From Verrucomicrobium sp. BvORR034 (GTDB lineage: Bacteria; Verrucomicrobiota; Verrucomicrobiia; Verrucomicrobiales; Verrucomicrobiaceae): a stretch of 58,701 bases of DNA. Under the pieces are notes generated by a model, which saw only the letters and a program-made list of their open reading frames with translations, made no database searches and was not told the origin of the DNA. The number at the start of each line of letters is the position of its first letter. Positions within the stretch are counted from its first letter, which is position 1. Position numbers and translations under genes: made by a program. Positions 11,496 to 29,878 of the stretch are shown here, piece after piece. The stretch is taken from contig NZ_BATQ01000120.1 in NCBI RefSeq assembly GCF_000739635.1, forward strand, positions 1 through 58,701, written 5' to 3'.

Positions 11496-12401
11496 TTAGT
11501 TGCCCTTCACACGCTTGACCTCAATGACACCGATGGAAGGCAGCGGCTCGCCATCCAGCGTGCGATTGCCCGACTGCCAGGTGAGCTTGTCCTCGCCGAC
11601 CTTTGTGATCGTATTCTCAACGGTCGTCCTGCCGCCATCAGGATTCACTCCCGACTCTCGCACCAGCCAGCGCTCCCCTTCCCGGGTCCAGCGCCCTTCC
11701 GCGAAACCGCCCTCCGCATCAAAGGTCCAGGAGCGGATGGATCCCTCCACAGGGTCCCAGCCGATGATCTGCCACCCCTCCAGCAAAGTCTCCTCACCCT
11801 GCTTCACCGTCACATTGCGGGTGATGAAGGCCGCCCCCTTGGACCACACATACTGGCTGCGGACAGACAGGTCGTTTTCCTTGTCCACATCCTCCCAGTC
11901 ACCGATCAGCCAGTCGAGTTCTGCCAGCTTGGCCCCCGGCGACTCTTCGGGATACGGTGTCTCGATCAACTGGCTGATCCGCCACTTGTCGTCTTTCTTG
12001 ACGTGAATCGCCGTGTAGGTGGAGCGCTCCACATCACCGTCCTTGGCCGTCACCTTCGTGGCTCCCTTCTCCACCACCACGTCCGCGGACAACCTGCGCA
12101 CCGAGATCGAGGCGATCTCGAGCTTCGACCCCTTGCTCCCTGCGAACGAATCACGGATACCCTCCTCAATCGCAGCATGCCCGGTGAGCGTCCGACCGTC
12201 TTCCGTGGAAAACTCGGCATCCTCCGCAAAGAAGCTTGCCAGGGCTTTTACGTCTCCTTTGTTGTAGGCCACTTCATACGCCCTGTTCAGGGCATTGACG
12301 GCAGTCTGTTCCGGGGTGGTGGCAGCTTGATCAGTCTCTTGGGCGGACACGCCGCCCACCACCATGAGCAATGAGGCAATGGACAAGGACAGTACTTTCA
12401 T
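11496..12401 (-). CDS. Exported SnoaL-like/DUF4440 protein with C-terminal lipocalin-like half
   Basis: 301 residues from the chosen ATG (12401), which starts the signal peptide MKVLSLSIASLLMVVGGVSA; an in-frame ATG at 12422 would add seven poor residues. Residues 22-150 are an NTF2-like fold of the YybH/SgcJ type (AYEVAYNKGDVKALASFFAEDAEF, WRISQLIETP). The rest is beta-rich (WLIGDWEDVDKEN, GWDPVEGSIRSWTFDAEGGF), as in proteins annotated SgcJ/EcaC family. Likely periplasmic, ligand unknown. It leads the two-gene unit with the Gly-rich protein, and the palindrome at 12464-12482 lies 62 bases before its start, linking it to the FixJ-type regulon proposed here. Confidence 0.8.
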   Translation of the reverse strand: MKVLSLSIASLLMVVGGVSAQETDQAATTPEQTAVNALNRAYEVAYNKGDVKALASFFAEDAEFSTEDGRTLTGHAAIEEGIRDSFAGSKGSKLEIASISVRRLSADVVVEKGATKVTAKDGDVERSTYTAIHVKKDDKWRISQLIETPYPEESPGAKLAELDWLIGDWEDVDKENDLSVRSQYVWSKGAAFITRNVTVKQGEETLLEGWQIIGWDPVEGSIRSWTFDAEGGFAEGRWTREGERWLVRESGVNPDGGRTTVENTITKVGEDKLTWQSGNRTLDGEPLPSIGVIEVKRVKGN

Positions 12402-12463: not shown

Positions 12464-12482
12464 ATAGGACCATGGTCCGATG
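12464..12482 (-). promoter_or_regulatory. Palindromic operator candidate, site 1
   Basis: Read toward the SnoaL-like gene the site is CATCGGACCATGGTCCTAT, followed by GGC. Core GGACC-AT-GGTCC is a perfect inverted repeat. The same 19-base pattern recurs at 23947, 25356 and 26254, each time 36-70 bases before a start codon and followed by (G/T)AT(A/G)G. It fits binding of a dimeric LuxR/NarL-type helix-turn-helix, here probably the FixJ-family regulator at 25474. Confidence 0.6.
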
Positions 12483-12993
12483 CCAGGGAGGGCGTTCTCA
12501 CACCGGCAGCCGCTTTCTTTCAGGGTGCGCCATCGGATTTTGGATGAACCGTGAAAGAAACGGCTGGTAGAAGAGCGGCGCGACCACCTTGAGATGGTGA
12601 CGACGCAAAAGGTCACGCCATTGGGCGCGATAGTCGCGTACACCTTTGGCATCGCCAGCGGCATGAACGCCACGGCAAAAGTGAGCCCCCATTCCGACCA
12701 TAGTTCCCAGACAGTCCTGTCGATGCAAGATCAACTCGCGCTCTGCGGCTGGGGTCTGGCCGCCATTGTCTCCATCACCACATGGCTGTTGAACAGCCAC
12801 GCCGAAAAGCGGACGCAATCGTAGCCCGAGCTTCAGCAGACCTCGTGCGCCGCTTGAACCGGCTTGTCCCCTTACGCAGGCTGAAGGCCGCACCCCCTGC
12901 AGCACTCCGCATCATCACCCTGATCCCCAACACGCCCGCCAACACCTCAAACCCTCCGGGTTCATGAGCCAACGCACAGGAGAACCCTTCCCC
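12483..12993. other. Intergenic region between SnoaL-like gene and kinase gene
   Basis: About 510 bases containing no certain gene. The one plausible reading frame is the small plus-strand ORF 12594-12824, listed separately. The minus-strand frames here are Arg/Gly/Cys-rich and look like shadows. No terminator hairpin with a T run is obvious after the kinase gene that ends at 12994. Confidence 0.5.
12594..12824 (+). CDS. Possible small single-pass membrane protein
   Basis: 76 codons, or 53 from the internal ATG at 12663. The C-terminal half has a hydrophobic helix (LALCGWGLAAIVSITTWLL) followed by a basic tail (HAEKRTQS). Third codon positions are mostly G or C, as in neighbouring genes. There is no good ribosome-binding site before either ATG and I do not recognise a family. 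It is the only plus-strand candidate in a run of minus-strand genes. It may be a chance frame. Confidence 0.3.
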   Translation: MVTTQKVTPLGAIVAYTFGIASGMNATAKVSPHSDHSSQTVLSMQDQLALCGWGLAAIVSITTWLLNSHAEKRTQS

Positions 12994-15900
12994 TCACTCC
13001 TCCACCGTTCGCAGCGTGAAGCTGAACGTCGCCCCGCCTTCGGAATGGTTGCCCGCCCACAGCCGCCCTCCATGCGCTCCGACGATGGCTTTGCAGATGG
13101 ACAGCCCCATGCCAAGGCCTTGCATTTTGGTGGAGAAAAAGGGCTTGAAGATGCGCTCCGCCATTTCAGGCGCGAGCCCCGGCCCACGATCCGACACCGC
13201 CACGAGAATGAAGCCAGGGTCCGCTGGCCGCGTCTCCACCACCAGCTGCCGGATCTCTGGCGGATTGGCCGCCATCGCATCGCATCCGTTCAGGATCAAA
13301 TTCAGCAGCACCTGTTGGAGCTGAATGTGATCCCCCTTCACGAGCAGCACCTCAGAGGAAAAGCGCGTCTCGATGGAGACCTTCCGCTCGATGAGGTCGT
13401 TGTTGATGAGCAGCAGCGCCTGCTCGATGTCGGCATTGATGTCGCGCGACTCCATCTCTGCCTCGCCCTTTTTCACCATGTTCCGCATGCGCTCGATGAT
13501 CTCGTTCGCCCGGCGGTCGGCGGCGGTAATGTCCTCCAGGCTATGGCGCACTTCCTCAATCTCCACCGGCTCGGTGGTGAGGAAGCGCATGGCCGCCTGG
13601 GAATTTGCCAAAATGGTGGTGAGCGGCTGTTTCAACTCATGGGCCAGGGAGGCGGAAAGCTCACCCAGCAGGGACACGCGACTCATGTGAGCCAGCTCGG
13701 CACGCATCTGCCGGGTGCGCTCCATCTCCGCCAGCTCTCGCCGGTGCCTCGCATTCATGATCCCCAGGCCAGCGGCGCCGCCCACGGCCACTAGCAGCAC
13801 CATGCCCCCAGCTCGAAACCACCAACTCTCCCAGGGCTGGGGCCGCACCGTGATAGCGAGGCTGGCCGCCGCGTCGCTCCAGTTGCTCCGGCTGTCAGAT
13901 GCGCCCACGTGAAAGACGTACCTTCCCGGTGCGAGACCGCCATAGGATACCTGACGGCGGTTCCCGGCCTTGACCCAGCCGGTGTCCAACCCTTCCAGAC
14001 GGTGGCGAAAGCGGATCCACTCCCCGCCCGACAGCGCGGGGGCAGTGTAGCTGATCTCCAGCCGGTGCTGTCCGGCGGAAAGCACCAGAGCATCGCCCAG
14101 AGCCTGCGGCATCCCGTCCACCAGCACGCTCTCCACCACCACTCGGGGTTGGGTCATGCTCATGGCCTGCAGCCGCTGCGGATGAAACTCCGCAATGCCG
14201 CCCACGGTGGGAAAGAGCAGCCTGCCGTCCCGCGTCTTCATGGCCGAGGGCGAGCAACCGCTGGCGCACTGGGGTGAGAGCACACCTTCATTCTTGCCAA
14301 AGACCACCGGGTGCAGCTCGGTGATCGAGCCAGCGTCCAGTGCGTCGAAGTCCCGGCGGTCGATCCGCATGATGCCGCGGTTGCAGCCGAGCCAGACCGC
14401 CCCGTGGTCATCAGGCAGGATTTGGGAAACAACATCATCCACCAGCCCCTCCCGCATGGTGTAGTTCACCACCCGCCCCTCCCTCAGGCGGGAGAGACCA
14501 CCGCCCAGCGTACCGATCCACACGGTGCCGTCTGGATCGCGATGGAGGGCGCGGACGTTTCCTGAGACCAGCCCCTCCACCCGGCCCCACTTGCGCAGGC
14601 TGTCTGCCTGCCAGCGGTACACCCCGGAGGCGCTCCCCACCCACAGGGTGCCCACATCCTCCGGCACCAGGCAGGTGATGCCGCCGCGGAAGGTGCCGCG
14701 CGGGGCGGAGACTTGAAACTCCCGCCCGTCCCACCTCAGCAGGGTGGCATAGTAGGTGCCCAGCCAGACCGTGTTCCCCAGAGCAGCCACCGCCCGTACT
14801 GCTTCGTTCTGCACGGGAGGCGCCCGGTGCAGCACCGTAGGCTGCCCGGTCTGCACTCGGCAGACAAACTGCTCCCCGGAGAACCAGGCGCTGCCATCCC
14901 CGGCCACCATGCCAGCATAGGCATGCGGGCGGAAGGGGCCAATCACTTCATCGGTTAGCTTCTCGAACCGCCCGTTTTCAAAACGGAGGATGCCGTCACC
15001 GGAGGCGCAGACAAGCCAGGCACTGGAGGGCGATGGCTCCTCTACGATGGAGGTGATGGTCCCAGCTTGGGCAAGACCGGCCTCTGCCCCCCAGAAGTTC
15101 AACACCCGGCGGGAGAGCCGGTACAGTCCTCCAAAGGAGGTGCCGGCCCAGATGCTGCCATCCTGGTCCACCAGCAGGCTCCGCACATGACTGGAGCCCA
15201 GCCTCTGCTCCATTTCAGGTTCGAACCTCCCTCCCTTCAGGCAGTACACCCCCCCTTTGCGGACGCCCGTCCAGATCGTGCCGTCCCCGCTCTGGGCCAG
15301 GCACTCAAAGCTGGAAAAAGGCAGCCCGTCGCGGGTGTCGAGTTTCTTCCATGAACCATCACGCATCTCCCACATGCATCCGTTGCCCATGCCAGCCCAC
15401 ACGCCTCCCTCCCGGTCCGCCAGAAGGCTGTAGCAATCACCCGACACGGGACCCGGCCCCGGCACTTTCACGAACCGGCCGGTGGAATTCTCAAACAACC
15501 CTGCCTCAATCACGGACACCCACATGACGCCGCGGAAGTCCTCCGCCACCGCGCGGATTTGATCCCGCGGCAATCCGTGCTCAGGCCCGATGAGCTCGAA
15601 CCTCCCCTGCTGCCAGCGCACCAGCCCTTCACTCGTGCCAATCCACACCGCGTCATTCCCTCCTGCGGTCATGCACACCACATCCCCGCCAGAGGGGAAG
15701 CCCTCCTTCTGCTCATAGGTGGTAAACTTCCCGCCATCCCAACAGCTCACCCCGCCTCCGCTGGTCCCAATCCACAGCTTGCCGTCCCGGCTTTCTGCCA
15801 GCGCCGCAATGCGCAGGGAACGCAGCCCGTCCTGCAAAGCAAAGTTGCGAAAGCGATATCCGTCGAACCGCGCAAGCCCGCCCCCTGTCCCCACCCAGAG

Positions 15901-16149
15901 GAAACCATCGTGCGTCTGCACCAGCGCGTTCACCGTGTTCTGAGGCAGGCCGTCCTCCGTCTGCCAGTTGCGCGCCACCCAGTCTTGCGAAGCCGGGACG
16001 GAGACGGACGCAGAAGCAGCATGCTCCACCTCTGAGGCCTGACTGCTGGCAGCCCACCAGGCCAGACCCAATCCCACAATCCATCCCGCCCATGAGAATT
16101 GACTCCCACAAGTTGCCGCGCCCCCCTTCCGCCTGACAATCCGCCGCAT
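12994..16149 (-). CDS. Two-component sensor kinase with periplasmic beta-propeller
   Basis: 1051 residues. A signal/anchor segment (WAGWIVGLGLAWWAAS) is followed from about residue 57 by a two-component regulator propeller: repeated units such as GFLWVGTGGGLARFDGYRF, KLWIGTSGGGVSCWDGGKF and GTIWTGVRKGGVYCLKGGRF. A Y_Y_Y domain (about 690-765; LEISYTAPALSGGEWIRFRH) and one membrane helix (about 785-805) follow. The cytoplasmic kinase resembles FixL: GELSASLAHELKQPL with His837 as the likely phospho-acceptor, N-box LNLILNGCDAM, DRGPGLA and GLGMGLSIC. No receiver or DNA-binding domain is fused, unlike many propeller hybrids, so it needs a separate regulator. The FixJ-type protein at 25474, at the other end of this locus, is the obvious partner. 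Confidence 0.93.
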   Translation of the reverse strand: MRRIVRRKGGAATCGSQFSWAGWIVGLGLAWWAASSQASEVEHAASASVSVPASQDWVARNWQTEDGLPQNTVNALVQTHDGFLWVGTGGGLARFDGYRFRNFALQDGLRSLRIAALAESRDGKLWIGTSGGGVSCWDGGKFTTYEQKEGFPSGGDVVCMTAGGNDAVWIGTSEGLVRWQQGRFELIGPEHGLPRDQIRAVAEDFRGVMWVSVIEAGLFENSTGRFVKVPGPGPVSGDCYSLLADREGGVWAGMGNGCMWEMRDGSWKKLDTRDGLPFSSFECLAQSGDGTIWTGVRKGGVYCLKGGRFEPEMEQRLGSSHVRSLLVDQDGSIWAGTSFGGLYRLSRRVLNFWGAEAGLAQAGTITSIVEEPSPSSAWLVCASGDGILRFENGRFEKLTDEVIGPFRPHAYAGMVAGDGSAWFSGEQFVCRVQTGQPTVLHRAPPVQNEAVRAVAALGNTVWLGTYYATLLRWDGREFQVSAPRGTFRGGITCLVPEDVGTLWVGSASGVYRWQADSLRKWGRVEGLVSGNVRALHRDPDGTVWIGTLGGGLSRLREGRVVNYTMREGLVDDVVSQILPDDHGAVWLGCNRGIMRIDRRDFDALDAGSITELHPVVFGKNEGVLSPQCASGCSPSAMKTRDGRLLFPTVGGIAEFHPQRLQAMSMTQPRVVVESVLVDGMPQALGDALVLSAGQHRLEISYTAPALSGGEWIRFRHRLEGLDTGWVKAGNRRQVSYGGLAPGRYVFHVGASDSRSNWSDAAASLAITVRPQPWESWWFRAGGMVLLVAVGGAAGLGIMNARHRRELAEMERTRQMRAELAHMSRVSLLGELSASLAHELKQPLTTILANSQAAMRFLTTEPVEIEEVRHSLEDITAADRRANEIIERMRNMVKKGEAEMESRDINADIEQALLLINNDLIERKVSIETRFSSEVLLVKGDHIQLQQVLLNLILNGCDAMAANPPEIRQLVVETRPADPGFILVAVSDRGPGLAPEMAERIFKPFFSTKMQGLGMGLSICKAIVGAHGGRLWAGNHSEGGATFSFTLRTVEE

Positions 16150-16277
16150 GTGCTCTTATGCCATAACGGGCCAGCAACCGGATGTCAGTAGAAAAAATTC
16201 ACAATTACCTCTTCTCATGTTTCCCCGATCTTCCAGAACCCCAGTCCATGCACTCTCCGCAGACGCACAGCGGGCGG

Positions 16278-16646
16278 TCAAGCCCGGCTGATTTTCCCCC
16301 ATAACCCGGTGATGGTGGACTGGGCTGCCGCTTTCAGCTTTTCAATAGAGGTGCCTTCAGGCAAAGAGGTGTCCACCAGCGGGTCCCCTGCCAGTTCACT
16401 CAGCAGGGCGACGACCGCCCCGGTGTTCTCATACAGAAAGTCCTCCTTCTCTTTCTCCGTGAGGGCGAAGACGGCGAGGTTCAGCACCCAAGTGCCATCC
16501 TTGCGCAGGAGGAAACGGTCCAGCTGCAGCGTCATGCTGCCAGGCGCGCTGGCCTCCTGCCGCACGATGAAGGGGCCGCGCCCGCCGGGGCCATAGCCCA
16601 GGTTGAGAATTTCACAGTTGTGATAGCTGTTGGTCAGTGTGGCCAT
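16278..16646 (-). CDS. Hypothetical 122-aa soluble protein
   Basis: I do not recognise a family. The sequence begins MATLTNSYHNCEILNLG and contains PFIVRQEASAPGSMTLQLDRFLLRKDGTWVLNL in two adjacent blocks, predicted beta-rich, then a helical C-terminus (IEKLKAAAQSTITGLWGKI). No signal peptide or membrane helix. It lies 36 bases after SulP and 128 bases before the kinase gene on the same strand. It probably travels with the exporter/PPK2/SulP unit and might have a stress-related role, but nothing in the sequence fixes one. Confidence 0.7.
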   Translation of the reverse strand: MATLTNSYHNCEILNLGYGPGGRGPFIVRQEASAPGSMTLQLDRFLLRKDGTWVLNLAVFALTEKEKEDFLYENTGAVVALLSELAGDPLVDTSLPEGTSIEKLKAAAQSTITGLWGKISRA

Positions 16647-16682
16647 GGTTGATGAAGGTTTGAAGTGACCGCCCGGGAGTTC

Positions 16683-18401
16683 TCAACGTTCCGCCGGCGG
16701 GGAGGACGGGACGCCAACAGGTTGTGCAGAAGAAAAATGGTCCACAGCATCGGCGACTGAGGTGAGCCGGTTGATCGGACCGATACTTTCCTCGAACCCC
16801 TCCAGCCGCAGGGTCTCGCGAACGGACGCATGGGCCTCCACCACCTGGAGCTGGCTACCCAGGGCCGTCACATCCCGGTGAAGCGAGATCAGGGTCTGTG
16901 CAGACTGCATGTCCACATGCGGTGCCGCCGACAGGTCCAGCACCACCAGGGCCGGGACACTCACCAGCGCGCGGACCTTGTTCACGATGGCATCACGCAC
17001 ATGTTCCACATTGAAGTAATAGAGCGCCGACTCCGGCCGTGCGATCAGGAGGCCGCTCAAGGCCTCGTTGTCCGGATTCTTGGCCACGTCTGAATAGCGC
17101 CGGGTACCGGGTATGCGACCGAGGAAAGCCACATGAGGATGGGAGGACCGGCGCAGCAACTGCAGCAGGGAAATGATGGCACCGATCAGCACCCCGCGGA
17201 GCAGGCCTGACCCCAGCACTCCCGCCATGGCGGCGATGGCCACCACGAACTCCGCGCGATAGCATGTCCACAACCGCACCAGGGCCTTGAGCTTGAAGAG
17301 CCCGGCGATGGCAAAGAGCACGATGGCGGCCAGCACTGGCTGGGGCAGATGCCGCAGCACCCCGGAGAGGAAGACAGTGATCAGCAACACGATAACCGCA
17401 GAAATCAGCCCAGACAAAGGCGTGCGGGCCCCGGCGCTCTCATTCACCAGCGACTGGGACATTCCGCCGCTCACCGGGAAGGAGCGTCCCAGACCAGCGG
17501 CGAGGTTCGCCCCCGCCAGGGCCAGCAGCTCCTGGTTGCCATCAAACCGGCCGCCGTGTTTGGCGCAGAACATCCGCCCGATGGCGGCCGTCTCCACTGC
17601 CCCAAGAAGGAAGCACGCCAGGGCCAGGGGAAGCAGCTCATTGAGATCTGCCCATTGAACGGCAGGCAGGCCCGGCATCGGCAGTCCCTGAGGCACGGTC
17701 CCCAGCAGCTTGACCCCACGAGCCTCCAGGCCCAGGAGGGGCGAGAGCACGATGCCGCCCGCCACCACAAAGAGGGCCACGGGCTTGTTCTTGAGATAGA
17801 TCTTACCTAGAACCATCACCCCCAATGCCAGGAGGCCGATGGTGAGCGAGGCCAAATTGGTCTCGCCCAGATGCGAGAAGAAATGCCCGGCCCGCTCCCA
17901 AAAGTCCCCGTGGCTGCCTTTGAATCCACACAGCTTGGGCAGCTGCGTGGAAGCCAGAAACAACGCGAGACCGGACTTAAACCCGATCATCACGGGATCA
18001 GAGATGAAGTGCACCACCGCGCCCGCCTTGAGCAGCCACGCCGCAAAGGCCAGCACGGCCACGATGAGGGCTGTGCATGCCGCCAGAGCGGAGTAACGGC
18101 TGACATCCCCCTGGGCGATGGACCCCAACGAAGCTCCCACCAACAGAGAGATGGCCGAGGTGACCGTGACCGCAGTGTGACGCGAACTGCAAAACAACCA
18201 AAAGACCAGCCCGGAAAACAGACACGCATACAGCCCTGCCTCCGGGGGCAGATTGGCCAGCGAGGCATCCCCAATGCCGGCTGGCAGCAGATACGCTGCC
18301 AGCGTGATGCCGGCCAACAGGTCCTGTTTGAACCAGCCGGGCTGATACTCACGCAGCCAGCGCATGGCTGGCAACACAGTGCGGGAGGACAGGGCGCTCA
18401 T
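16683..18401 (-). CDS. SulP-family anion transporter with STAS domain
   Basis: 572 residues. The N-terminus WLREYQPGWFKQDLLAGITLAAYLLPAGI, seen across the first 50 residues, is the SulP signature, followed by about 11-12 hydrophobic segments to residue 420. The cytoplasmic C-terminal STAS domain (about 440-555) includes VPALVVLDLSAAPHVDMQSA. Family members carry sulfate, bicarbonate or other anions across the inner membrane; the substrate here is not determined. It follows the polyphosphate kinase gene by 54 bases, so co-expression of anion uptake with PPK2 is likely. Confidence 0.92.
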   Translation of the reverse strand: MSALSSRTVLPAMRWLREYQPGWFKQDLLAGITLAAYLLPAGIGDASLANLPPEAGLYACLFSGLVFWLFCSSRHTAVTVTSAISLLVGASLGSIAQGDVSRYSALAACTALIVAVLAFAAWLLKAGAVVHFISDPVMIGFKSGLALFLASTQLPKLCGFKGSHGDFWERAGHFFSHLGETNLASLTIGLLALGVMVLGKIYLKNKPVALFVVAGGIVLSPLLGLEARGVKLLGTVPQGLPMPGLPAVQWADLNELLPLALACFLLGAVETAAIGRMFCAKHGGRFDGNQELLALAGANLAAGLGRSFPVSGGMSQSLVNESAGARTPLSGLISAVIVLLITVFLSGVLRHLPQPVLAAIVLFAIAGLFKLKALVRLWTCYRAEFVVAIAAMAGVLGSGLLRGVLIGAIISLLQLLRRSSHPHVAFLGRIPGTRRYSDVAKNPDNEALSGLLIARPESALYYFNVEHVRDAIVNKVRALVSVPALVVLDLSAAPHVDMQSAQTLISLHRDVTALGSQLQVVEAHASVRETLRLEGFEESIGPINRLTSVADAVDHFSSAQPVGVPSSPPAER

Positions 18402-18455
18402 GTGCTTCTCGGCTCGTTCGTGGCCAGCGGATTCTCCTGCGCCCCAGCCCGGGCA

Positions 18456-19361
18456 TCACTTCTCTGCCGTCAGCTCCTGTTTGGCGGCTGCCAGTTCCTC
18501 AAGCTTGGCCTTGCCCACATGCGGATAGGCGAGGTCCAACGTGGACAGCGCGTCGATAATGGCGGCAGCCACCACCACCCGGGTGTACCACTTGTTGTCC
18601 GCGGGCACCACATACCAGGGGGCCTCGTCAGTCGCCGTGTTCCGGATGGTGTCTTCATACGCCCTCGCGTAGTCCTTCCAGTGCTTGCGCTCAGCGGCGT
18701 CATTCGCGGAAAACTTCCAGTTCTTTTCCGGCCTCTCGATGCGTTGCAGGAAGCGCTTCTTCTGCTCATCCTTTGAGACGTGCAGGAAGAACTTGCGCAC
18801 GATGATGCCGTTGTTTCCCAAATACCGCTCAAACCCGCGAATGTCCTTGTACCGAGTGTCCCAGATGTCCTTGCCGGCATGCTTCTCCGGCAGCTTCTGT
18901 TTTTTGAGAATCTCCGGGTGCACCCTCACCACAAGGGTCTCCTCATAGTAGCTGCGGTTGAAGATGCCAATCCTGCCCCGCTCCGGCAGGTGCTTCTGGC
19001 ACCGCCAGAGATAGTCATGGTCAAGGTCCTCGGACGAGGGCATCTTGAACGAGGCCACCTGACAGCCCTGCGGATTCACCCCGCTCATGACATGTTTGAT
19101 GGCGCCATCTTTGCCGGCGGCATCCATGGCCTGGAAGATCAGGAGCACTCCCCACCGGTCCTGCGCATAGAGCATGTCCTGCAACTCTGCCAGTGCCGTC
19201 ACCCCGGTTTGGAGCGCCTCCTTGGCCTCCGGCTTGTTTTCCGCCGTGAGACGCCCCGTGTCACCCGGGTCGATGTCGTCCAGACGGAACTTGCCCCCGT
19301 CAGAGATGCAATAGGGCTGGGAAAGCTTGCGGGCGCGCTTGATGACTTCCTTGAGTTTCAT
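18456..19361 (-). CDS. ppk2: Polyphosphate kinase 2 family protein
   Basis: 301 residues from ATG 19361, whose product starts MKLKEVIKRARKLSQPY; an in-frame ATG at 19397 would add 12 atypical residues. PPK2 enzymes transfer phosphate between polyphosphate and nucleotides. Visible motifs are the Walker A-like QAMDAAGKDGAIKHVMSGVN, the Walker B-like region IGIFNRSYYEETLVVRVHPE, and the lid/adenosine region PWYVVPADNKWYTRVVVAAA. Length and single domain match class I or III PPK2, which favour NDP or AMP/ADP phosphorylation. It lies in the exporter-PPK2-SulP run, which suggests stress physiology. Confidence 0.93.
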   Translation of the reverse strand: MKLKEVIKRARKLSQPYCISDGGKFRLDDIDPGDTGRLTAENKPEAKEALQTGVTALAELQDMLYAQDRWGVLLIFQAMDAAGKDGAIKHVMSGVNPQGCQVASFKMPSSEDLDHDYLWRCQKHLPERGRIGIFNRSYYEETLVVRVHPEILKKQKLPEKHAGKDIWDTRYKDIRGFERYLGNNGIIVRKFFLHVSKDEQKKRFLQRIERPEKNWKFSANDAAERKHWKDYARAYEDTIRNTATDEAPWYVVPADNKWYTRVVVAAAIIDALSTLDLAYPHVGKAKLEELAAAKQELTAEK

Positions 19362-19469
19362 GGCTGGCAGGTTGGGTTGGGCAGTGCAAGGGGTCACCGG
19401 TCCGCGGCAAGGGAACTTGCAGCCAGCCCCGGCAGACTCCCCGGGAAGGGGGAAAATTCCTGTTGACTC

Positions 19470-19700
19470 CTAGTACGCCAGGCCCCTGCGCCCGCGGGCC
19501 TTGTCGTTCACGTTCTCCCGGCGGTCATAACGGTTCTCAAGGTGATCGCCCGGCCCGTCGTAGTGGCGCCGGTCATAGCGGTCTTCACGGCGGTCGTAGC
19601 GGTCCTCCACCCGGTCCACCGTGCCCACACACCCTGTCAGCCCGGCGAGCAGCACTCCGGCGGAAGCAGCCATCAGTATCTTGCTTTGCAGTGTTTTCAT
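19470..19700 (-). CDS. Small lipoprotein with RYDRRE repeats
   Basis: 76 residues. The signal ends in a lipobox (VLLAGLTGC), so Cys24 is probably lipidated. The mature part is short, charged and repetitive: VEDRYDRREDRYDRR, then LENRYDRREN. The alternating Asp/Arg pattern suggests an extended or electrostatic surface peptide. No family recognised. It follows the outer-membrane factor gene by 34 bases and precedes PPK2 by about 108, so it may be an accessory of the exporter. Confidence 0.75.
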   Translation of the reverse strand: MKTLQSKILMAASAGVLLAGLTGCVGTVDRVEDRYDRREDRYDRRHYDGPGDHLENRYDRRENVNDKARGRRGLAY

Positions 19701-19734
19701 AGATTGGGTCGGTTAAAGGGTGCGGGTCATCCGG

Positions 19735-21225
19735 CTACTTCTGGGTCGAGGTGGTGAACCCGCCGCCCAGCGCCAGATGCAGGTTCGCCCGCTCACGCAA
19801 CCGCGAGGCGCGGATCTTGGTAAGCTCGATCTTGGCCGCGAGATTCTCCCCCACCAGCCTGAGGATGGTGAACATGTCTGCATGCCCCTGATCCACCTGC
19901 TCCCTGCCGAGCTTCACGGCCGTGCCGCTGTTGCTCACCATTTCGCTCAAGGCCCCTTCACGGCGCCTCAGGTGGTACTCACTGGCCAGGGCATCCTCCA
20001 CTTCGGCAAAGGCGCGCAAGGCTGCGGAGGTGTAGTCTGAGGCAGCGGCCCGCTGTTCATGAGTGCGAAGGTCTTGGGCCGCCTTCAACTCCCCACCCAG
20101 AAAGATGGGCTGCACCACACCGGTGGCGAGGCTCCAGTTGATAGAGTCCAGCACCCCTACCCCGTCCAGATCTGCTGTGCCCGCCCCGCCCATGGCACTG
20201 ATGGCAAAGCGCGGCAGCCTCGCGGCTTTGGCTTCATTCACCCGATGGAAGGCTGCGGCAAAGTGGCGCTCTGCCGCGATGAGGTCGGGCCGCCTCTCCA
20301 GCAGTTCCATGGGCATGCCTGCTGGCACGGGGCGGAGGCCGGAGGGAAAGCTGGTGCGGATGGAGGCCTTCCCCGCGGGATAGTGGCTGGTGACCACCTC
20401 GATGGCCCGCACGGCGTGATCATGCGCAGCCTCTGCTGCATACAAGGTGTCTCGCGCAGCGGCGGTGCGGGAGTTGACCTGGGCCAGCTCAAAGTCGCTG
20501 GAGAAGCCCTGCTCCTTGCGCTTGTCCGTAAGCTTGCCGTAGTCCTGGTAGAGGCCCAGTGTCTCCCTCGCATTGGCAGCCTGCTGGGAGGCCTCTATCG
20601 CGGAGAAGTATGCCTTGGCCACCTGGGCGGCGAGCGACTGCCGCGCATACTCATAGGTCGCCTCCAGCGCCGCACTGTCTGACTTGGCCGCCGCCTTCCG
20701 GGAGCGAACCCGCCCCCAGACATCCGCCTCCCACGCAGCGCCGATGCCGAGACCGTACACCCACCGCTGGGACGAGGAGTCAACCGTGCGGGTGTCCGGG
20801 CTGCCGCCGCTCAGATTGATGCCAAAGGAACCCAGCTCAGCGGGGTCAATCCCCACCCCCAGATCACCGGAAAGCTCACTGCCCTGGCGCTCGCCCAGCC
20901 CTTTGAGCCCCACCTGGGGATACAGAGATGAGGCTGCGATGCGCACCGCCGCACGCGAGGCATCCACGCGGGCTGCCGCGGCCTTCAGATCCGGATTCCG
21001 CAGGATGGCCTCCTCCACCAGCCGGGTGAGAGAGGGATCATTGAAACTACGGATCCAGTCCGGGGCCACCCGCCCCCTCGTGTGGGGCGAGGCCCACTTC
21101 TCATTTACCTGGGAACGGGCGTAGTCCGTCATGATGTCACCACCCGCGGGCGGTTCCTTGATCGCGCAGCCTGCCAGCAGCAGGCCTGTGACCAACGAAA
21201 GTGATGCCGTAGTCTTGGAGTGCAT
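19735..21225 (-). CDS. NodT/TolC-family outer-membrane efflux lipoprotein
   Basis: 496 residues with lipobox LVTGLLLAGC (Cys near 20). Two OEP repeats follow: ILRNPDLKAAAARVDASRAA near residue 80-100 and LLERRPDLIAAERHFAAAFH near 315-335, both standard TolC/NodT family blocks. It forms the outer-membrane channel of a tripartite exporter. Its start is 27 bases from the HlyD-type gene stop, so adaptor and channel are co-translated. No RND, MFS or ABC pump is encoded nearby; the DUF3302-like protein upstream is the only inner-membrane partner, as in AaeA/YiaV-type systems. Confidence 0.93.
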   Translation of the reverse strand: MHSKTTASLSLVTGLLLAGCAIKEPPAGGDIMTDYARSQVNEKWASPHTRGRVAPDWIRSFNDPSLTRLVEEAILRNPDLKAAAARVDASRAAVRIAASSLYPQVGLKGLGERQGSELSGDLGVGIDPAELGSFGINLSGGSPDTRTVDSSSQRWVYGLGIGAAWEADVWGRVRSRKAAAKSDSAALEATYEYARQSLAAQVAKAYFSAIEASQQAANARETLGLYQDYGKLTDKRKEQGFSSDFELAQVNSRTAAARDTLYAAEAAHDHAVRAIEVVTSHYPAGKASIRTSFPSGLRPVPAGMPMELLERRPDLIAAERHFAAAFHRVNEAKAARLPRFAISAMGGAGTADLDGVGVLDSINWSLATGVVQPIFLGGELKAAQDLRTHEQRAAASDYTSAALRAFAEVEDALASEYHLRRREGALSEMVSNSGTAVKLGREQVDQGHADMFTILRLVGENLAAKIELTKIRASRLRERANLHLALGGGFTTSTQK

Positions 21226-21252
21226 GGCGAAGCAGGGAGGGACAGCGCAGTC

Positions 21253-22437
21253 TCAGTGAAGCTTGAAAACGAACCAGTCGACCTTCGTGGACACACGGAC
21301 GAAGACCTTTCGAATGATGTGGAGAAACTTGCCCTTCTCCGTATAGATGGCACCGCCGCCGCGGGCACCTGCAGCGAGAAAGAGGTCCTTGTCCCGCGGC
21401 TCTACCAGCAGCCGCACGGCGATGCGCTGGTCCGGCATTTCATGGGGCAGAGTGTTGGGCAGATTCCCGCTGATGGGCATCTGCCCCTGGGCTGTGGCCC
21501 AGAGGATGGAGTCCACCTTGCACTTGATGATGCGGTCCGGATAAGTCTTCAGGAAGATCTCGGCCTCGTTCCCCTCCTCCACATAGCGCAGCTCATTCTG
21601 GCTGTAGAAGGCCAGCACCCAGGGATCGTCCTCCTCTATAAAACTCATCACCGGTGAGAGGGGCAGCTGCACGGCCCGCACTCCGGGACGGAGCGCGAGG
21701 TTTGCCACCCTGCCATTCGCAGGTGCGAGGAAAGTGGTTCCTTCCAGATCATACTTGGCCGACACCAGATCCGCCTCCGCTTTGGCGATCTGCGCCTTGG
21801 CCTGGGCCACCTCGTCGATCTCCCCGGCCTCGGTGCGAGCATCAATCTTCTGCTTGATCTTGGACTCCATGGCCTTGGCCCCGGCAATCTGGCTCGTCAG
21901 CTGCGCCACATCCGACTCGGACTGCTCCTGCTCCGCCCTACGGCCGGCACCTGAGGTGGCCAGTTGGGTGAACTGGGACACGCGCTTCTTCGCCAGCTCA
22001 AGTTTCACGTTGAGCGCCTCTGTACTGGCTTGGGCGTTCTTCAACTCATCATCCAGCCCGCGTTGGTAGGCCTGCGCCGTCACCAGGCCGACTTTGAGTT
22101 CAGCCAGCTTGGCCTCCGCCGCATTCACCGCCTCCTGGAATGGCACCGGATCGATCTTGAAAAGCACATCGCCCTTCTTGATCGGCCGGTTGGGCTCAAT
22201 AGGCACATCCGTGACCTGACCGGACACCCGCGGCACCACAGGGATCACATAGTTCATGGCCCGCACATCATGCGACGATGGCGCGACGATGTTCATGAAC
22301 AGAATGATCACTGTGAGCGCGAAGATGGGCAGAGTGACCACGATCACCTGACTCACAATGTTCCAGGGCAGCAGCTTGAACTTGAAGAAGATCAGCCAGA
22401 CGATGATCGAGTAGATGATGAGAAGGATAAGCTCCAT
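21253..22437 (-). CDS. HlyD-family membrane fusion protein (YiaV/AaeA-like)
   Basis: 394 residues. Starts with two hydrophobic segments (LILLIIYSIIVWLIFFKF; IFALTVIILFMNIVAPS), then the biotinyl-lipoyl half VIPVVPRVSGQVTDVPIEPN with KKGDVLFKIDPVPFQ. A coiled-coil hairpin spans about residues 95-205 and the second lipoyl half is FLAPANGRVANLALRPG. This bridges the inner-membrane partner and the NodT channel. Its ATG shares one base with the stop of the upstream DUF3302-like gene (TGATG), indicating translational coupling. A paralogue with the same partner type is at 44589. Confidence 0.92.
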   Translation of the reverse strand: MELILLIIYSIIVWLIFFKFKLLPWNIVSQVIVVTLPIFALTVIILFMNIVAPSSHDVRAMNYVIPVVPRVSGQVTDVPIEPNRPIKKGDVLFKIDPVPFQEAVNAAEAKLAELKVGLVTAQAYQRGLDDELKNAQASTEALNVKLELAKKRVSQFTQLATSGAGRRAEQEQSESDVAQLTSQIAGAKAMESKIKQKIDARTEAGEIDEVAQAKAQIAKAEADLVSAKYDLEGTTFLAPANGRVANLALRPGVRAVQLPLSPVMSFIEEDDPWVLAFYSQNELRYVEEGNEAEIFLKTYPDRIIKCKVDSILWATAQGQMPISGNLPNTLPHEMPDQRIAVRLLVEPRDKDLFLAAGARGGGAIYTEKGKFLHIIRKVFVRVSTKVDWFVFKLH

Positions 22438-22853
22438 CAGACAGTCCCTCCTTTTTCAGTTTCCGACTTCTTCCCGTGGCCATGCCCGATGGTCTCGTCC
22501 ACATCCGTGCCGTACGCCGCCTTGTAGAGGACAGGTTTCATGTACGCCCACAGCCAGGCCAGCGGCCAGAGCAGCCCGCCAAACACGAGGGAAAGCAGGC
22601 ACAGGCACTGGATGGCAGCGGTCTGAGGATGCTTCTTCTTCTCCGCAATCTTCTCCGGAAGAATGTGCACCAGCCAGAACACCACGATGCCGATGATGGG
22701 GGCGAGGATGATGGCCACCCAGGAGATGACATTCGCCACAGCATCCAGCGTCTCGCCGTGGAACAAGGAGGCATGAGCCTGCGCAGGCAAGGCCATCAAG
22801 AGCAGGAGAACCGACATCGCCGCTCGGGGATGTCGGTCATGATGAAGCTTCAT
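22437..22853 (-). CDS. DUF3302-like small inner-membrane protein (YiaW-like)
   Basis: 138 residues from ATG 22853, which opens the signal-like MKLHHDRHPRAAMSVLLLLM; the longer frame to 23093 is Arg/Pro-rich and rejected. Two membrane segments (VISWVAIILAPIIGIVVFWL; LLSLVFGGLLWPLAWLWAYM) surround a conserved loop PEKIAEKKKHPQTAAIQCLC. The loop and the WP motif align with YiaW-type DUF3302 protein at 44236 (YEQAKKRNHPQAEAIHVACW). Unlike that protein it carries a cleavable-looking N-terminus. Function of the family is unknown; it is consistently encoded beside HlyD-type adaptors, which is also the case here. Confidence 0.75.
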   Translation of the reverse strand: MKLHHDRHPRAAMSVLLLLMALPAQAHASLFHGETLDAVANVISWVAIILAPIIGIVVFWLVHILPEKIAEKKKHPQTAAIQCLCLLSLVFGGLLWPLAWLWAYMKPVLYKAAYGTDVDETIGHGHGKKSETEKGGTV

Positions 22854-22902
22854 GGTGGGGAGTCGGGGTTGGGTTGAGCTGTCCAAAAGGAAGTCCACCA
22901 TG

Positions 22903-23877
22903 CTAGGCGGATCCGGCTTTCTGCTTCGCGATCGCGGCCTTCGTGGCATTGATGTTGGCGAGTTCGATGACAAACTCGGAATACCCCTGGAAAAGGGCGG
23001 TGAAGTCGCGCCGCAGTGTGACCACGGCTGCACGCAGGGCATCATCCATGCTCTTGGCATCCTTCGCCCCCACAGACAGGGTCGCTGTCTCATAGCCGGA
23101 GGCCACCTCCAGCTGCTGGGCCTTCCGTGTCTTCACCAGCTCATCACAGCGCACCAGTTCCGTCATCAGCGTATTGCGGTCAGCTTCGGAGCCGGAGGCG
23201 GCGATGCGGTCTGAGATGGTGCGCTTTTGCCGCTCGATGGAGTCAATGCTGCGCTGCAGCCCTTTGCTCACCTTTTCCCGCTGCGAGTTGGTGTGCGAGC
23301 TGAGCCGCCGGTTCTGCTTGTAGTCCTCGTTCTCCGCGTAGGTGGGGCCGTTCCAGCTGTCTCCGGTGACCTTGTAGCGCTCATATTCTTTGGGCGTGGG
23401 CAGGGACGCGGTGAGGCTCATGACCTGCTGCACCCGCTTCTCGATGCGGGCGTCGAACTTGGCGATGGCCTGCTGCTTCTGCTCCGGTGTGAGGTTCACC
23501 GTGGGGCGGCGCAGCTCCTCTTGCAGTCGGGCACGGCGCTGCTGGTAGTAGGTGATGTTCTTCCCCAGCGCATCGATGGTCTCCACCTTGATCCTCGTCA
23601 TCTTGGATTTGGTGTCATTGGAGTCCCCCACCTTGCGCAACGTTTCCACGATATGATCCACCGTGTTTTCGATGCGGGAGTCGGAGGCCTTCAGCTCCCC
23701 TCTGAGAAGGGCGGCGCGGTCTTCTCGTGCCTTGAGCTGTGTCTCCAGGGCCGTCGGTTCTTTTCCCATCACTGGTGCCGGCACCGCCAGGGCCGCCCAT
23801 CCCGCCACCGTGGCCGCTATGAGCAACATCGTGCCGGAACTGTGCGCCGGCGTGCAGAGGATTCGTACTTTTTTCAT
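22903..23877 (-). CDS. Exported coiled-coil protein, unknown function
   Basis: 324 residues from ATG 23877 ([15 protein letters not shown]), giving a signal peptide ending near PAPVMGKE; the in-frame ATG at 23931 gives a poorer N-terminus. The mature part is almost entirely helical and charged, with heptad-like stretches ([40 protein letters not shown]). No catalytic motif or family recognised. It is the first gene of the run coiled-coil, DUF3302-like, HlyD, OMF, lipoprotein, and a shared palindrome lies 70 bases before its start. A periplasmic partner of the exporter or an envelope scaffold is possible. Confidence 0.75.
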
Positions 23878-23946
23878 AGCCGTCGTGTGCTGAAAATTGC
23901 GATCTGAAATGCCTGCCTCATGCTCAGTCATTCACGCGGGCAATGC

Positions 23947-23965
23947 TATCGGCCTTTGGTCCTAC
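23947..23965 (-). promoter_or_regulatory. Palindromic operator candidate, site 2
   Basis: Read toward the coiled-coil/exporter operon: GTAGGACCAAAGGCCGATA, then GC. It differs from the strongest site (25356) at four of 19 positions. It lies 70 bases before the chosen start of the coiled-coil gene, in the 98-base gap after the porin gene. GAAT some 11 bases further could be part of a -10 region. Confidence 0.5.
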
Positions 23966-23975
23966 AAGATCCCGG

Positions 23976-25319
23976 TCAGAAGGTGTAAGTGTAGTTACAG
24001 ATGACGCGGAGATCCGTGAGATCGTCCCCCGTGCCGCCACGCTCATCCACCACGGCATAGCGCAGGCGCAGAGACAGCCCCTTCAACACCCCCTTGGGAG
24101 CGGTCCACTGGAGGTTCAAGTCGTACTCATCTCTCGCGTAGAGTCCCGCAGGATCAGGGTCCAACCCATGAACCCACAGTGCATAGGCACTCAATCCTTT
24201 GACCCAGGGGATGTCATATGCAGCCCTCAACATCAAGGCGTCCTCACCATCGCGATTATAGTCCTCCACCTGCACGGCGGTGTAACCCGGATAACCACTC
24301 CAGGGGGATTGAATGGCACCATCCCCAAAAATGTTGGTGTAGGCCGCAGTGAACAACGCTCCGCCCACGGGAAGCTCGGCCTTGATGCCAAACTGCTGAC
24401 TGGAGTCACCGTCCTCCAGCAAGAGATCATCCCCCACACTGCGCTGGTCGATGAACTGCACGGCGAACCTGGGTTTCAGCTTCTCGCTGATGGCCACCTC
24501 CAGCTTGGCCTCGGCATAGCCGATGTTGATGACATCGGGGCAGTAGTAGTCAATGGCCCCCACGGAGAAGTCCCCCTTCTTGTAGAGAGCCCCCGCGGTG
24601 TAAACGCCACGGTCCGCATCCGCGCCAGCATCCCTGCCCATGGAGACAAAGTCATCGGAATTGCGGTCTTTGATCGCATCCACATATCCCAGTCCGTACT
24701 TGAGCGTGGCCCCTTCACTCCCCAGATCTGTCGTACCTTGCAGGGTGATCGCCTCAAAGGTGTTGGGCGTCATCCGCGAATCGTTCCGGTTGATGAACGG
24801 GGTGTCGTACTCCTTGCGACCCACGTACAAATGGAACTTCTCCACGAGGCGAAGGTCTACATAGGCCTCCCCCAACACGGTATATCCCTCCTGCCCGGAC
24901 GCCAGAATGAGCGAGCCGTCCCGGTCATCATCCCCCGACAGATGCTGGGAGGTGTAAGCGGTCACACCGAAGGACACGTGATCGAGGAAGTACCCTGTCT
25001 TCACCCCTGCCCAGCCCCCGGTCGCCAGGGCTTCGCTGATGGAGCCATCGTACTTCTCCCGGTAGAAATAGTAGGTGCGGGAGTGCAGCTTGAACTCGGT
25101 GTCTTCCAGGGCCCCCTTCCGCTTCTGCAGACGCCATTCGCGTCCCCTCCAGTCAAAGGATTCATCAAGAGGAGTCTGGCCCTGCTCCGTGGAGGACGCG
25201 GCCGCTCCTTCATCTTCAACAGGCTGTTGACCCGACACTGTGGAAGCAGTGCCAACGCTCAAGGCAAGCATTCCACCTGCCACCACCATCTCAAGCCGGA
25301 AGCAATGCAAGGTTCTCAT
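23976..25319 (-). CDS. OprD-like outer-membrane porin
   Basis: 447 residues from ATG 25319 (MRTLHCFRLEMVVAGGMLAL), which gives a signal peptide ending near TVSGQ. The mature protein has alternating beta strands, e.g. FKLHSRTYYFYREKY near the N-terminus, FHLYVGRKEYDTPFINRNDS mid-protein and LSLRLRYAVVD near the end, and finishes in YTYTF with a terminal aromatic as in outer-membrane barrels. The RTYYF and GRKEYDTPFIN features fit the OprD family of substrate-specific porins. It is divergent from the FixJ-type regulator, with a strong copy of the shared palindrome 36 bases before its start, so it is a probable direct target. Confidence 0.82.
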   Translation of the reverse strand: MRTLHCFRLEMVVAGGMLALSVGTASTVSGQQPVEDEGAAASSTEQGQTPLDESFDWRGREWRLQKRKGALEDTEFKLHSRTYYFYREKYDGSISEALATGGWAGVKTGYFLDHVSFGVTAYTSQHLSGDDDRDGSLILASGQEGYTVLGEAYVDLRLVEKFHLYVGRKEYDTPFINRNDSRMTPNTFEAITLQGTTDLGSEGATLKYGLGYVDAIKDRNSDDFVSMGRDAGADADRGVYTAGALYKKGDFSVGAIDYYCPDVINIGYAEAKLEVAISEKLKPRFAVQFIDQRSVGDDLLLEDGDSSQQFGIKAELPVGGALFTAAYTNIFGDGAIQSPWSGYPGYTAVQVEDYNRDGEDALMLRAAYDIPWVKGLSAYALWVHGLDPDPAGLYARDEYDLNLQWTAPKGVLKGLSLRLRYAVVDERGGTGDDLTDLRVICNYTYTF

Positions 25320-25355
25320 CAAGGTCGAAGCATGCCCACTCCGGTCCCACAAAGC

Positions 25356-25374
25356 CATCGGACCTTGGTCCTAT
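25356..25374 (-). promoter_or_regulatory. Palindromic operator candidate, site 3
   Basis: Read toward the porin gene: ATAGGACCAAGGTCCGATG, then GC. It has a perfect GGACC-NN-GGTCC core and differs from site 1 mainly in the flanks. It lies in the porin/FixJ divergent region, 36 bases before the porin start and about 100 before the regulator start, so it may serve both directions. Confidence 0.65.
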
Positions 25375-25446
25375 TCCACCCACTGCTTTGCATTAGCATG
25401 CAAACAACCTGAGATTCCGTTTCCCTGTAGAAACTAGAAATCATCT

Positions 25447-25473
25447 TGACACTTAGCTTCGAAATGGAGAAAA
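25447..25473 (+). promoter_or_regulatory. Possible promoter of the FixJ-type gene
   Basis: TTGACA occurs at 25447-25452 in the divergent region, with an A-rich stretch about 17 bases downstream. If this is the promoter, translation probably begins at a later ATG (about 25495 or 25519) rather than 25474. Weak evidence, since no clean TATAAT is present. Confidence 0.3.
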
Positions 25474-26166
25474 ATGGCGGACTTTTCGCAGCTCCGCATG
25501 CAACCGGAACCAAGAGCCATGCCCACATCCTCCGCTCCAGAAGATGGTATGGTGTACGTGGTGGATGACGATGGGCCGGTGAGGAGAAGCATTGAGCGGC
25601 TGATCCGGTCGTGGCGCATCCAGGCCACCAGCTTCCCCTCGGCGGCCACCTATCTTGACTGGGTCCGCCAGACCCCGCCTCCGGCGGCCTGCTGCCTGGT
25701 GCTGGATGTCTGCATGCCCGGTTCCGATGGCTTGGAGCTTCAGCAGACTCTCGCAGACCAAAGCATGCAGATTGTGTTCCTGACCGGGCATGGTGACGTG
25801 CCCACTTGCGCCACAGCGATGAAGGCCGGAGCCGTGGACTTCCTGACCAAACCCGTCGAAGAAGACAGACTCTACGGTGCCGTCACCATTGCGCTGGAAA
25901 AATCCCGTCAGGCCCGTCGGGAGGCCCAGGAGAGCATCTCCGCAAGAAAGCGTCTGCACACGCTGACAACCCGCGAGACGGAGGTCATGCGCTGCGTCAT
26001 TGCAGGCATGCTGAACAAACAGATTGCAGACGTGCTGGGCGCTGCAGAAAAAACCGTCAAGATCCACCGCGGACGCGTCATGGAGAAAATGGGTGTGTAT
26101 TCCGTGGCGGATCTGGTGCGTGCGGCTCAGGCGGCGGGTGTCCGCCCCATGGAAACCGTCCTCTAA
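25474..26166 (+). CDS. FixJ-family response regulator
   Basis: 230 residues in the longest form; the receiver starts at VYVVDDDGPV (about residue 27), so a start at the second or third ATG is plausible. The receiver has DDD for metal, Asp78 in LVLDVCMPG as phospho-acceptor, LTGHG and the Lys in LTKPVEED. A LuxR-type helix-turn-helix follows: LTTRETEVMRCVIAGMLNKQ and KTVKIHRGRVMEKM. It is the only DNA-binding regulator in the first locus, divergent from the porin and next to the single-domain receiver. I infer that it binds the recurring palindrome and is phosphorylated by the kinase at 12994. Part of this gene is duplicated, decayed, near 29665. Confidence 0.95.
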   Translation: MADFSQLRMQPEPRAMPTSSAPEDGMVYVVDDDGPVRRSIERLIRSWRIQATSFPSAATYLDWVRQTPPPAACCLVLDVCMPGSDGLELQQTLADQSMQIVFLTGHGDVPTCATAMKAGAVDFLTKPVEEDRLYGAVTIALEKSRQARREAQESISARKRLHTLTTRETEVMRCVIAGMLNKQIADVLGAAEKTVKIHRGRVMEKMGVYSVADLVRAAQAAGVRPMETVL

Positions 26167-26253
26167 CTGGACGCCCATTGCGTCACCTTGCCACAGGTGA
26201 CAAACCGGGATCACGCAACCGTTGCGCTGCGATTCGGCCCCTCCAACGCGCGT

Positions 26254-26272
26254 GTAAGACCTAGGTCCGATA
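26254..26272 (+). promoter_or_regulatory. Palindromic operator candidate, site 4
   Basis: Read toward the receiver gene: GTAAGACCTAGGTCCGATA, then GG. Core AGACC-TA-GGTCC has one mismatch from perfect symmetry. It ends 44 bases before ATG 26317; AATATT some 18 bases after GGTCCGAT is a fair -10-like element. Confidence 0.6.
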
Positions 26273-26316: not shown

Positions 26317-26730
26317 ATGTCCCCGCCCCCCATCCATGTTTACATCGTGGACGACGATCCCTCAGTACGGACCGCCTATGCGCGATTGCTGCGGTCAGCC
26401 TTGATCGAAGCTCAAACCTTCAGTTGCGTGGAAGAATTCCTAAATGCGAGGGTTACTGATGCCAATGCCTGCGTCGTCTCAGACATTGTGATGCCCGGCA
26501 CCAGTGGTCTGGAACTACCCAACAAACTGGCCCACTCTGGCCGGAAGTTGCCGATCATCTTTATCACCGCGCATGACTCCAAGGAACTGCGCAACAGGGC
26601 GCAAAGCATCGGTGCGGTGGCGTTGTTCCGCAAACCCGTCGACGGTCAGGCGCTGCTGGATGCCATCGCTTGGGCTGTGAACAGAACCCCAGTGACAGGC
26701 ACCCACCCTACGGAGCCGAACGGCAAATAG
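26317..26730 (+). CDS. Single-domain response regulator (receiver only)
   Basis: 137 residues with all receiver hallmarks: VYIVDDDPSVR, phospho-acceptor Asp56 in SDIVMPG, Thr in FITAHD and Lys in FRKPVD. No output domain; the tail after residue 120 is short and disordered. Such proteins act as phosphate sinks or shuttles for FixL/FixJ-type kinases. Preceded by operator site 4 and followed by no co-directional gene. A near-identical but decayed copy is at 29927-30356. Confidence 0.92.
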   Translation: MSPPPIHVYIVDDDPSVRTAYARLLRSALIEAQTFSCVEEFLNARVTDANACVVSDIVMPGTSGLELPNKLAHSGRKLPIIFITAHDSKELRNRAQSIGAVALFRKPVDGQALLDAIAWAVNRTPVTGTHPTEPNGK

Positions 26731-29860: not shown

Positions 29861-29878
29861 TGAGACCTAGGTCCGATA
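29860..29878 (+). promoter_or_regulatory. Duplicated operator, site 5
   Basis: GTGAGACCTAGGTCCGATA, one base different from site 4. It is retained upstream of the receiver pseudogene although that gene has lost its start, so it could still bind the regulator as a decoy. Confidence 0.5.

Follow-up and report, generated by a model that had tools for sequence, protein, structure and literature searches.

We analyzed positions 1 to 58,701 of contig NZ_BATQ01000120.1 of Verrucomicrobium sp. BvORR034 (the window), in which a short palindrome, RTAGGACC-NN-GGTCCKAT (the box), stands in front of several genes. We hold with considerable confidence that the box is the operator of a FixJ-type response regulator encoded at 25474, and that the regulator would switch on a conserved regulon by class II activation. 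The case is built on computed sites, on their conservation in related genomes, on a fixed promoter geometry, and on an association between the box and the recognition helix of the regulator. The original prediction for this DNA was a local regulon, running from a sensor kinase with a propeller domain through the FixJ protein to an exporter, a porin, a SnoaL-like/Gly-rich gene pair, and a receiver gene. Computation supports one operator, a FixJ-linked promoter set, and the named targets, but the proposal was too narrow: the cluster continues onto a second contig, C82, and there are remote members on contig C30 and in relatives.

The four boxes that had been noticed in the window are all real and correctly placed, apart from two positions that were off by one base (23947 and 25356, for 23948 and 25357). 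They match RTAGGACCNNGGTCCGAT at 12464 (+) and 25357 (−) with 0 mismatches, at 26254 (+) with 1 mismatch, and at 23948 (−) with 2 mismatches. Distances of 36 to 70 bases to the start codons had been claimed, and the measured gaps agree: 62 bases to the SnoaL-like ATG at 12401, 70 to the coiled-coil ATG at 23877, 37 to the porin ATG at 25319, and 45 to the receiver ATG at 26317, where all four start codons are our judgement from likely signal peptides and gene starts. Scanning the window with RTAGGACCNNGGTCCGAT gave 8 strand-matches (6 places, as palindromic sites are counted on both strands) against a mean of 0.69 in shuffled sequence; the largest shuffled count was 4, so that none of 100 came up to 8, which upholds the view that four such hits are unlikely by chance. 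The fifth place, at 29860 (+) with 2 mismatches, was not among the earlier four; the sixth, at 9667 with 3 mismatches, lies within the Gly-rich gene. The boxes and the genes of the locus are as follows.

12464..12481, minus strand: box of the SnoaL-like gene, reading ATCGGACCATGGTCCTAT on the gene-facing strand, with a −35-like TRG predicted at the end nearest the gene
12436-12441, minus strand: predicted −10 of the SnoaL-like gene (GAGACT), from the promoter alignment
23948..23965, minus strand: box of the coiled-coil/DUF3302/HlyD/OEP exporter operon, predicted −10 at 23920-23925 (GAGCAT)
25357..25374, minus strand: box of the OprD-type porin gene, predicted −10 at 25329-25334 (CATGCT)
26254..26271, plus strand: box of the lone-receiver gene, predicted −10 at 26294-26299 (GAGTGT)
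29860..29877, plus strand: fifth box, with 2 mismatches, inside a decayed duplicate; probably a relic
25474..26166, plus strand: FixJ-type response regulator (receiver plus GerE/LuxR helix-turn-helix [HTH]) with helix EKTVKIHRGRVMEKM, including Lys193 and Lys196; proposed box binder
26317..26730, plus strand: single-domain receiver protein with the box in its promoter; proposed feedback element, possibly in a FixT-like role
12994..16149, minus strand: propeller (Reg_prop/Y_Y_Y) sensor kinase with a FixL-type HisKA/HATPase core; proposed FixJ partner
11496..12401, minus strand: SnoaL/DUF4440-like protein gene, predicted target
9414..11483, minus strand: Gly-rich protein gene, 12 bases downstream of the SnoaL-like gene
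19735..23877, minus strand: operon for a coiled-coil protein, a DUF3302 protein, an HlyD adaptor, and an OEP outer-membrane exporter, predicted target
23976..25319, minus strand: OprD-family porin gene, predicted target

The Gly-rich gene lacks a promoter box of its own and may be cotranscribed with the SnoaL-like gene. Around the fifth box, positions 29660 to 30380 hold a decayed copy of the FixJ 3′ end, the box, and the receiver gene, in which the receiver copy lacks an ATG.

Across the 8.58-Mb genome, 64 distinct places match the box with at most 3 mismatches, and the intergenic share falls as mismatches rise, from 4/4 places with 0 or 1 mismatch to 4/7 with 2 (the other three, inside genes, are on contigs C16, C147, and C189) and 15/53 with 3. 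Places were classed with a simple codon-usage gene caller, which called 83% of 483 kb of fetched DNA as coding; because low-mismatch places are mostly intergenic despite this, good matches are not spread at random inside genes, the outcome that would have spoken against the original prediction. Beyond the window, boxes precede a lipoprotein-like gene (C30:142676, 0 mismatches), a DUF1269 gene (C30:143214), a DcuA/B transporter operon (C82:66692), and a phospholipase-D-type gene (C82:67634). A regulon confined to the window is thus ruled out by the sites on C82 and C30. The window contig (C81) and C82 very probably adjoin: the gene at the left end of the window (1-1543) and that at the right end of C82 (L031:17039-19077) are parts of one 1,266-amino-acid gene of a relative, G065, to which both are 80% identical and on which they lie ∼220 bases apart. 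With C82 next to the window, only C30 would be remote in this genome, and the Dcu box would be ∼32 kb from FixJ in one cluster. The C82 operon runs Dcu, aspartate ammonia-lyase, acetate kinase, DUF1269, an Sdh/Frd membrane subunit (weak match), and Sdh/Frd flavoprotein. Within it (L031:7370-11196), the acetate kinase, beside the Dcu transporter and the Sdh/Frd subunits, carries an N-terminal cyclic-nucleotide-binding domain, and the aspartate ammonia-lyase has a long N-terminal extension with a weak match to a cyclic-nucleotide-type regulator or binding domain.

Alignment of 44 gene-oriented boxes from five genomes revealed conserved columns outside the 18-bp box at G20 (36/44), A42 (32/44), and T46 (31/44). 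The A42..T46 pair occurs in 28/44 boxes, including all four in the window, while every other offset from 22 to 69 stays below 9/44; by genome it is found in 7/8 boxes here, 9/11 in G065, 5/10 in G062, and 6/13 in G061. This pattern reads as a −10 hexamer nAnnnT at positions 41 to 46 and a −35-like TRG at 18 to 20, with a 17-bp spacer. Transcription would then begin near position 53, a predicted start that would place the box at about −52 to −35, the position of a class II activator. A gene-side extension of the palindrome, (G/T)AT(A/G)G, had also been described; it is present, but since the −35-like TRG sits at the gene-side end of the box, it is best read as a promoter element rather than as extra operator. 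At several genes the start codon coincides with the predicted transcription start or is only a few bases away (L030:19267, L031:13688, and 25319 in the window), and at DUF1269 the ATG is exactly there, so that some messages are possibly leaderless or nearly so.

We searched for the FixJ protein in 68 genomes of the family (this genome is G000) and found orthologs with 83% (G065), 68% (G062), and 64% (G061) identity. These genomes also stand out in a family-wide scan for TAGGACCNNGGTCCGATRG with at most 2 mismatches, counted as strand-hits with the reversed sequence as control: 9 versus 2 in G000, 11 versus 4 in G065, 13 versus 3 in G061, and 9 versus 1 in G062, with mostly 0 to 2 strand-hits in the remaining genomes and 3 to 5 in six of them. 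Across these four genomes of two genera, the box precedes the SnoaL, porin, and receiver genes and the exporter and Dcu operons in 4/4 cases each, and boxes in front of DUF1269-type genes and of the CBS/phospholipase-D region are likewise found in 4/4 genomes, some with weaker scores. The exporter box precedes the coil gene in G065 and the DUF3302 gene in G061 and G062, and pyruvate kinase is the first gene of the Dcu operon in both of the latter. The receiver-gene box is also present in G012; there and in G061 it falls within a called gene, which was probably called too long. Relatives have remote box members of their own, on other contigs or far from the cluster, and targets predicted in a single relative include PPK2, an L,D-transpeptidase, a LamB porin, a bestrophin-like protein, and an SbmA/BacA-like transporter. 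In three genomes the box and promoter face 500 to 600 bases without a called gene (L032:9499-10123, also L201 and L203), a candidate box-controlled small RNA.

The protein at 25474 combines a receiver (Response_reg, 5.7e-22) with a GerE/LuxR HTH (GerE, 4.3e-19), as expected of the FixJ/NarL-type superfamily, and matches PDB entries 1yio (E = 1.5e-43) and FixJ 5xso (E = 3.6e-38). Its top NCBIfam model, among 25 listed of 81, is FixJ (NF006900), at 175.7 bits against a cut-off of 255. The model for ErdR (NF041830), which we take to be the CrbR of Pseudomonas aeruginosa, gives 40.9 bits against a cut-off of 390.

What links the box to this regulator is its association with a lysine at the second position of helix EKTVKIHRGRVMEKM. 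Among 46 FixJ homologs, in which TNGGACCNNGGTCCNA was sought with at most 1 mismatch within 10 kb (less at contig ends), the box is present near 15/17 with this Lys and 1/29 without it (Fisher p = 4.0e-9); since related sequences enter these counts more than once, we also counted by distinct helix (8/9 versus 1/20, p = 1.8e-5). Most of the 32 boxes in Lys loci are intergenic (28) and carry A42..T46 (30). Outside the window, the real palindrome has 29 hits in 16 Lys loci and 1 in 26 other loci, compared with means of 0.68 (largest, 3) and 1.75 (largest, 8), respectively, for 40 permuted palindromes. These controls, together with the shuffles and the intergenic placing genome-wide, rule out a chance origin of the boxes. 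Some FixJ loci (L264, L265, and L308) have boxes with other flanks (TAGGACC..GGTCCAA, TAGGACC..GGTCCTA), which suggests that operator flanks drifted stepwise between clades.

In the mechanism that we propose, a FixL-type kinase, most likely the propeller kinase at 12994, would phosphorylate FixJ, whose dimer would bind the box at about −52 to −35, over a poor −35, with Lys193 and Lys196 of the recognition helix reading the GGAC half-sites. The bound regulator would recruit sigma-70-type RNA polymerase to the −10 (nAnnnT) 17 bp on, in class II activation. The regulon would comprise the ∼32-kb cluster (porin, exporter, SnoaL, lone receiver, phospholipase-D-type gene, and the Dcu-aspartase-acetate kinase-fumarate reductase type operon) and the remote lipoprotein-like and DUF1269 genes, and feedback on the kinase probably comes from the lone receiver that the box drives. 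The signal may be oxygen or energy limitation, a tentative idea suggested by that operon and by the likeness to FixL/FixJ.

The propeller kinase is the likely partner of FixJ by elimination, gene order, and co-absence, and the original pairing of the two has these in its favor and nothing beyond them. Five kinase cores were found in this genome at E ≤ 1e-40; four adjoin other FixJ paralogs (C95, C76, C158, and C81:42334), and the fifth is the kinase at 12994, whose gene adjoins SnoaL in 4/4 genomes. Its core scores best against FixL (NCBIfam NF041777; 172.5 bits over the core only, below the cut-off of 850), and a domain search found Reg_prop/Y_Y_Y and no PAS domain. G067, of the same genus, has no match at E ≤ 1e-60 to the propeller kinase or the Dcu transporter, both of which are matched in G065, G061, and G062; its best FixJ is 53% identical, its sole box hit is of a paralog type, and the exporter adaptor also had no match there, in a search without a positive control. 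The assignment is not firm, because the FixJ paralog on C134 is also without a kinase among the five cores, so that elimination is not strict; because G061 and G062 carry a different kinase between FixJ and the receiver (with PAS and GAF domains in G062), for which neither G000 nor G065 has a counterpart of full length; and because the propeller kinase of G065 (G065:C98:140889-144058) is in two overlapping frames, either a real split or a sequencing error.

Several observations likewise tell against the box as the operator of an activating FixJ. Binding and activation of the predicted targets are inferred from sequence. Six genomes (G006, G021, G024, G037, G040, and G041) have 3 to 5 box strand-hits without a close FixJ, 2/17 Lys-helix loci (L210 and L213) have no box, and 1/29 non-Lys homologs has one. 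The exact A42..T46 pair is found in only 6/13 boxes of G061 and 5/10 of G062, where some seem shifted by one base, and the box prefers an asymmetric TAGG/CCGAT, a feature not required of a site for a symmetric dimer. Weaker sites on C82 were themselves among the 18 training boxes (8 from this genome) of the box matrix, the score ranking of which is partly circular, though mismatch counts are not. In a set of at least 118 cross-phylum loci, the −10 is not enriched in the gene-facing orientation (7/63 versus 25/174, p = 0.67); the loci are heterogeneous, many being Prevotella palindromes of a different type, and GC-rich DNA was poorly handled by the simple caller. Finally, in ten genomes reached through Burkholderiales loci of this set, where 30 of 50 matches had loci, the box is within ∼1.5 kb of 0/10 listed Burkholderiales regulators with a Lys in other helices (seven IKTVE and three VKT), so Lys alone is not sufficient.

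It is unlikely that the box serves instead another FixJ paralog of this genome, which has 6 FixJ homologs at E ≤ 1e-25. The paralog on C95 likewise combines a Lys helix with a box of GGACC core, and cross-talk between the box types is possible, but its clade adjoins ATTGGACC-NN-GGTCCAAT boxes (9/10 examined carry A42..T46 in one orientation) and not RTAGGACC...GGTCCGAT, and G067 keeps a C95-type system yet has only one box, of the paralog type, in the family-wide scan. None of the other four paralogs has the Lys, and none has a box within 10 kb. That FixJ binds the box and represses, by blocking RNA polymerase over the −35 position that the box overlaps, is slightly less probable still. Only TRG is left of the −35 and nAnnnT of the −10, and such weak elements are in keeping with a promoter in need of help; CrbR activates from a motif at −52 to −36 (PMC5715377), and the FixJ regions on fixK of Sinorhizobium meliloti are described at −69/−44 and −57/−31 (PMC4999443). 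Least credible, and hardly to be entertained, is that the palindromes act in RNA, as a hairpin or attenuator, or belong to a mobile repeat. Two of the four window boxes (12464 and 25357) contain GGACC-NN-GGTCC as a perfect inverted repeat, which would suit either, but predicted transcription starts are downstream of the box, for which we rejected the hairpin, and sites differ outside the box, −35, and −10, although no dedicated repeat search was made.

With the box as a FixJ operator, its parts are of kinds known from other systems, and the operator-regulator pairing and the predicted regulon are new. A parallel in core and placement is CrbR of Pseudomonas fluorescens, a LuxR-type response regulator whose ACTU imperfect inverted repeat at acs (−52 to −36, just before an RpoD promoter) is needed for activation; several ACTU sites have a GACC-WW-GGTC core (e.g., GTCGACCAAGGTCGTGT) (PMC5715377). 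The boxes here likewise form an inverted repeat around a core like GACC-WW-GGTC and, counted from predicted starts, lie at roughly −52 to −36 in sigma-70 promoters. CrbR differs in targeting acs and actP for acetate utilization and in having an SLC5-type hybrid kinase (PMC5715377). FixLJ of Alphaproteobacteria provides the best-scoring NCBIfam models for both the regulator and the kinase core, and the S. meliloti site TAAGTAATTTCCCTTA has a 16-bp frame, TARG-N8-CYTA, that corresponds to TAGG-N8-CCTA here; the inner site letters differ, and few targets are predicted there (fixK, nifA, fixX, and one hydroxylase) compared with many here (PMC4999443). The kinase here also differs in its propeller sensor, and neither protein reaches the cut-off of its equivalog model (FixJ or FixL). 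DosR/DevR and OsdR control hypoxia/dormancy regulons, and a test site (TTGGGGACTAAAGTCCCTAA) contains GGAC...GTCC, but these are actinobacterial and have other flanking bases (OsdR consensus AGGGCCGATCGGCCCT); the core DNA-binding residues K179, K182, and N183 of DosR fit the KTVK stretch here (PMC5999986, PMC5069765). Lys193 and Lys196 are the predicted counterparts of K179 and K182, and DosR is absent among the 13 PDB matches listed for the regulator at E ≤ 1e-10. Like the lone receiver, FixT of Caulobacter consists of a single receiver domain and belongs to a circuit of FixL-FixJ type; it has a 4-Cys motif and binds an Fe-S cluster (PMC7078487). The receiver at 26317-26730 has 2 Cys by inspection.

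A literature search, a partial survey and thus a weak negative, did not find the box in published work, nor a regulon of the Verrucomicrobium group for which an operator, a promoter geometry, a regulator, and a likely kinase are described together, as they would be for this one if our reading is right. It would tie genes without known function (DUF3302 exporter, DUF1269, SnoaL, and lone receivers) to a fumarate/fermentation type operon, and the Lys-helix/box association would offer a rule to predict operators of many unassigned FixJ-type regulators.

The association may reach beyond the phylum. At 23 loci of the cross-phylum set, taken as Burkholderiales from their record titles, a retrained caller placed 23/23 boxes between genes, and 11/23 have A42..T46 in at least one orientation, against ∼3 expected by our estimate. 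Nine of the ten genomes mentioned above are Burkholderiales, and 9/9 of these have a FixJ with an EKT helix; the box is within ∼1.5 kb of only 3/11 EKT loci among the matches listed in the ten. We see evenly balanced chances that there is a FixJ-type family in Verrucomicrobiota, Burkholderiales, and Desulfobacterales whose helix (EKT-V/I-K) reads GGACC-NN-GGTCC, with several insulated circuits side by side in a single cell, told apart by their flanks (RTAGG..CCGAT versus ATTGG..CCAAT), each served by a separate kinase and often by a separate box-driven receiver. Such a family would imply a simple recognition code together with a low-oxygen or energy-stress regulon, as yet unnamed, that spans phyla.

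A second FixJ-type regulator in the window (43082-43714, helix EQTIKVHRARLMQKL) has an adjacent kinase at 40867-43095 and no GGACC box within 10 kb, and therefore apparently belongs to a separate circuit. Many Prevotella records (L080, L094, L099, L118, L123, L138, L153, and others) share a palindrome of the type TCGCGTAGGACC-NN-GGTCCTATCAGCTT, found mainly between called genes, which looks like another conserved element.

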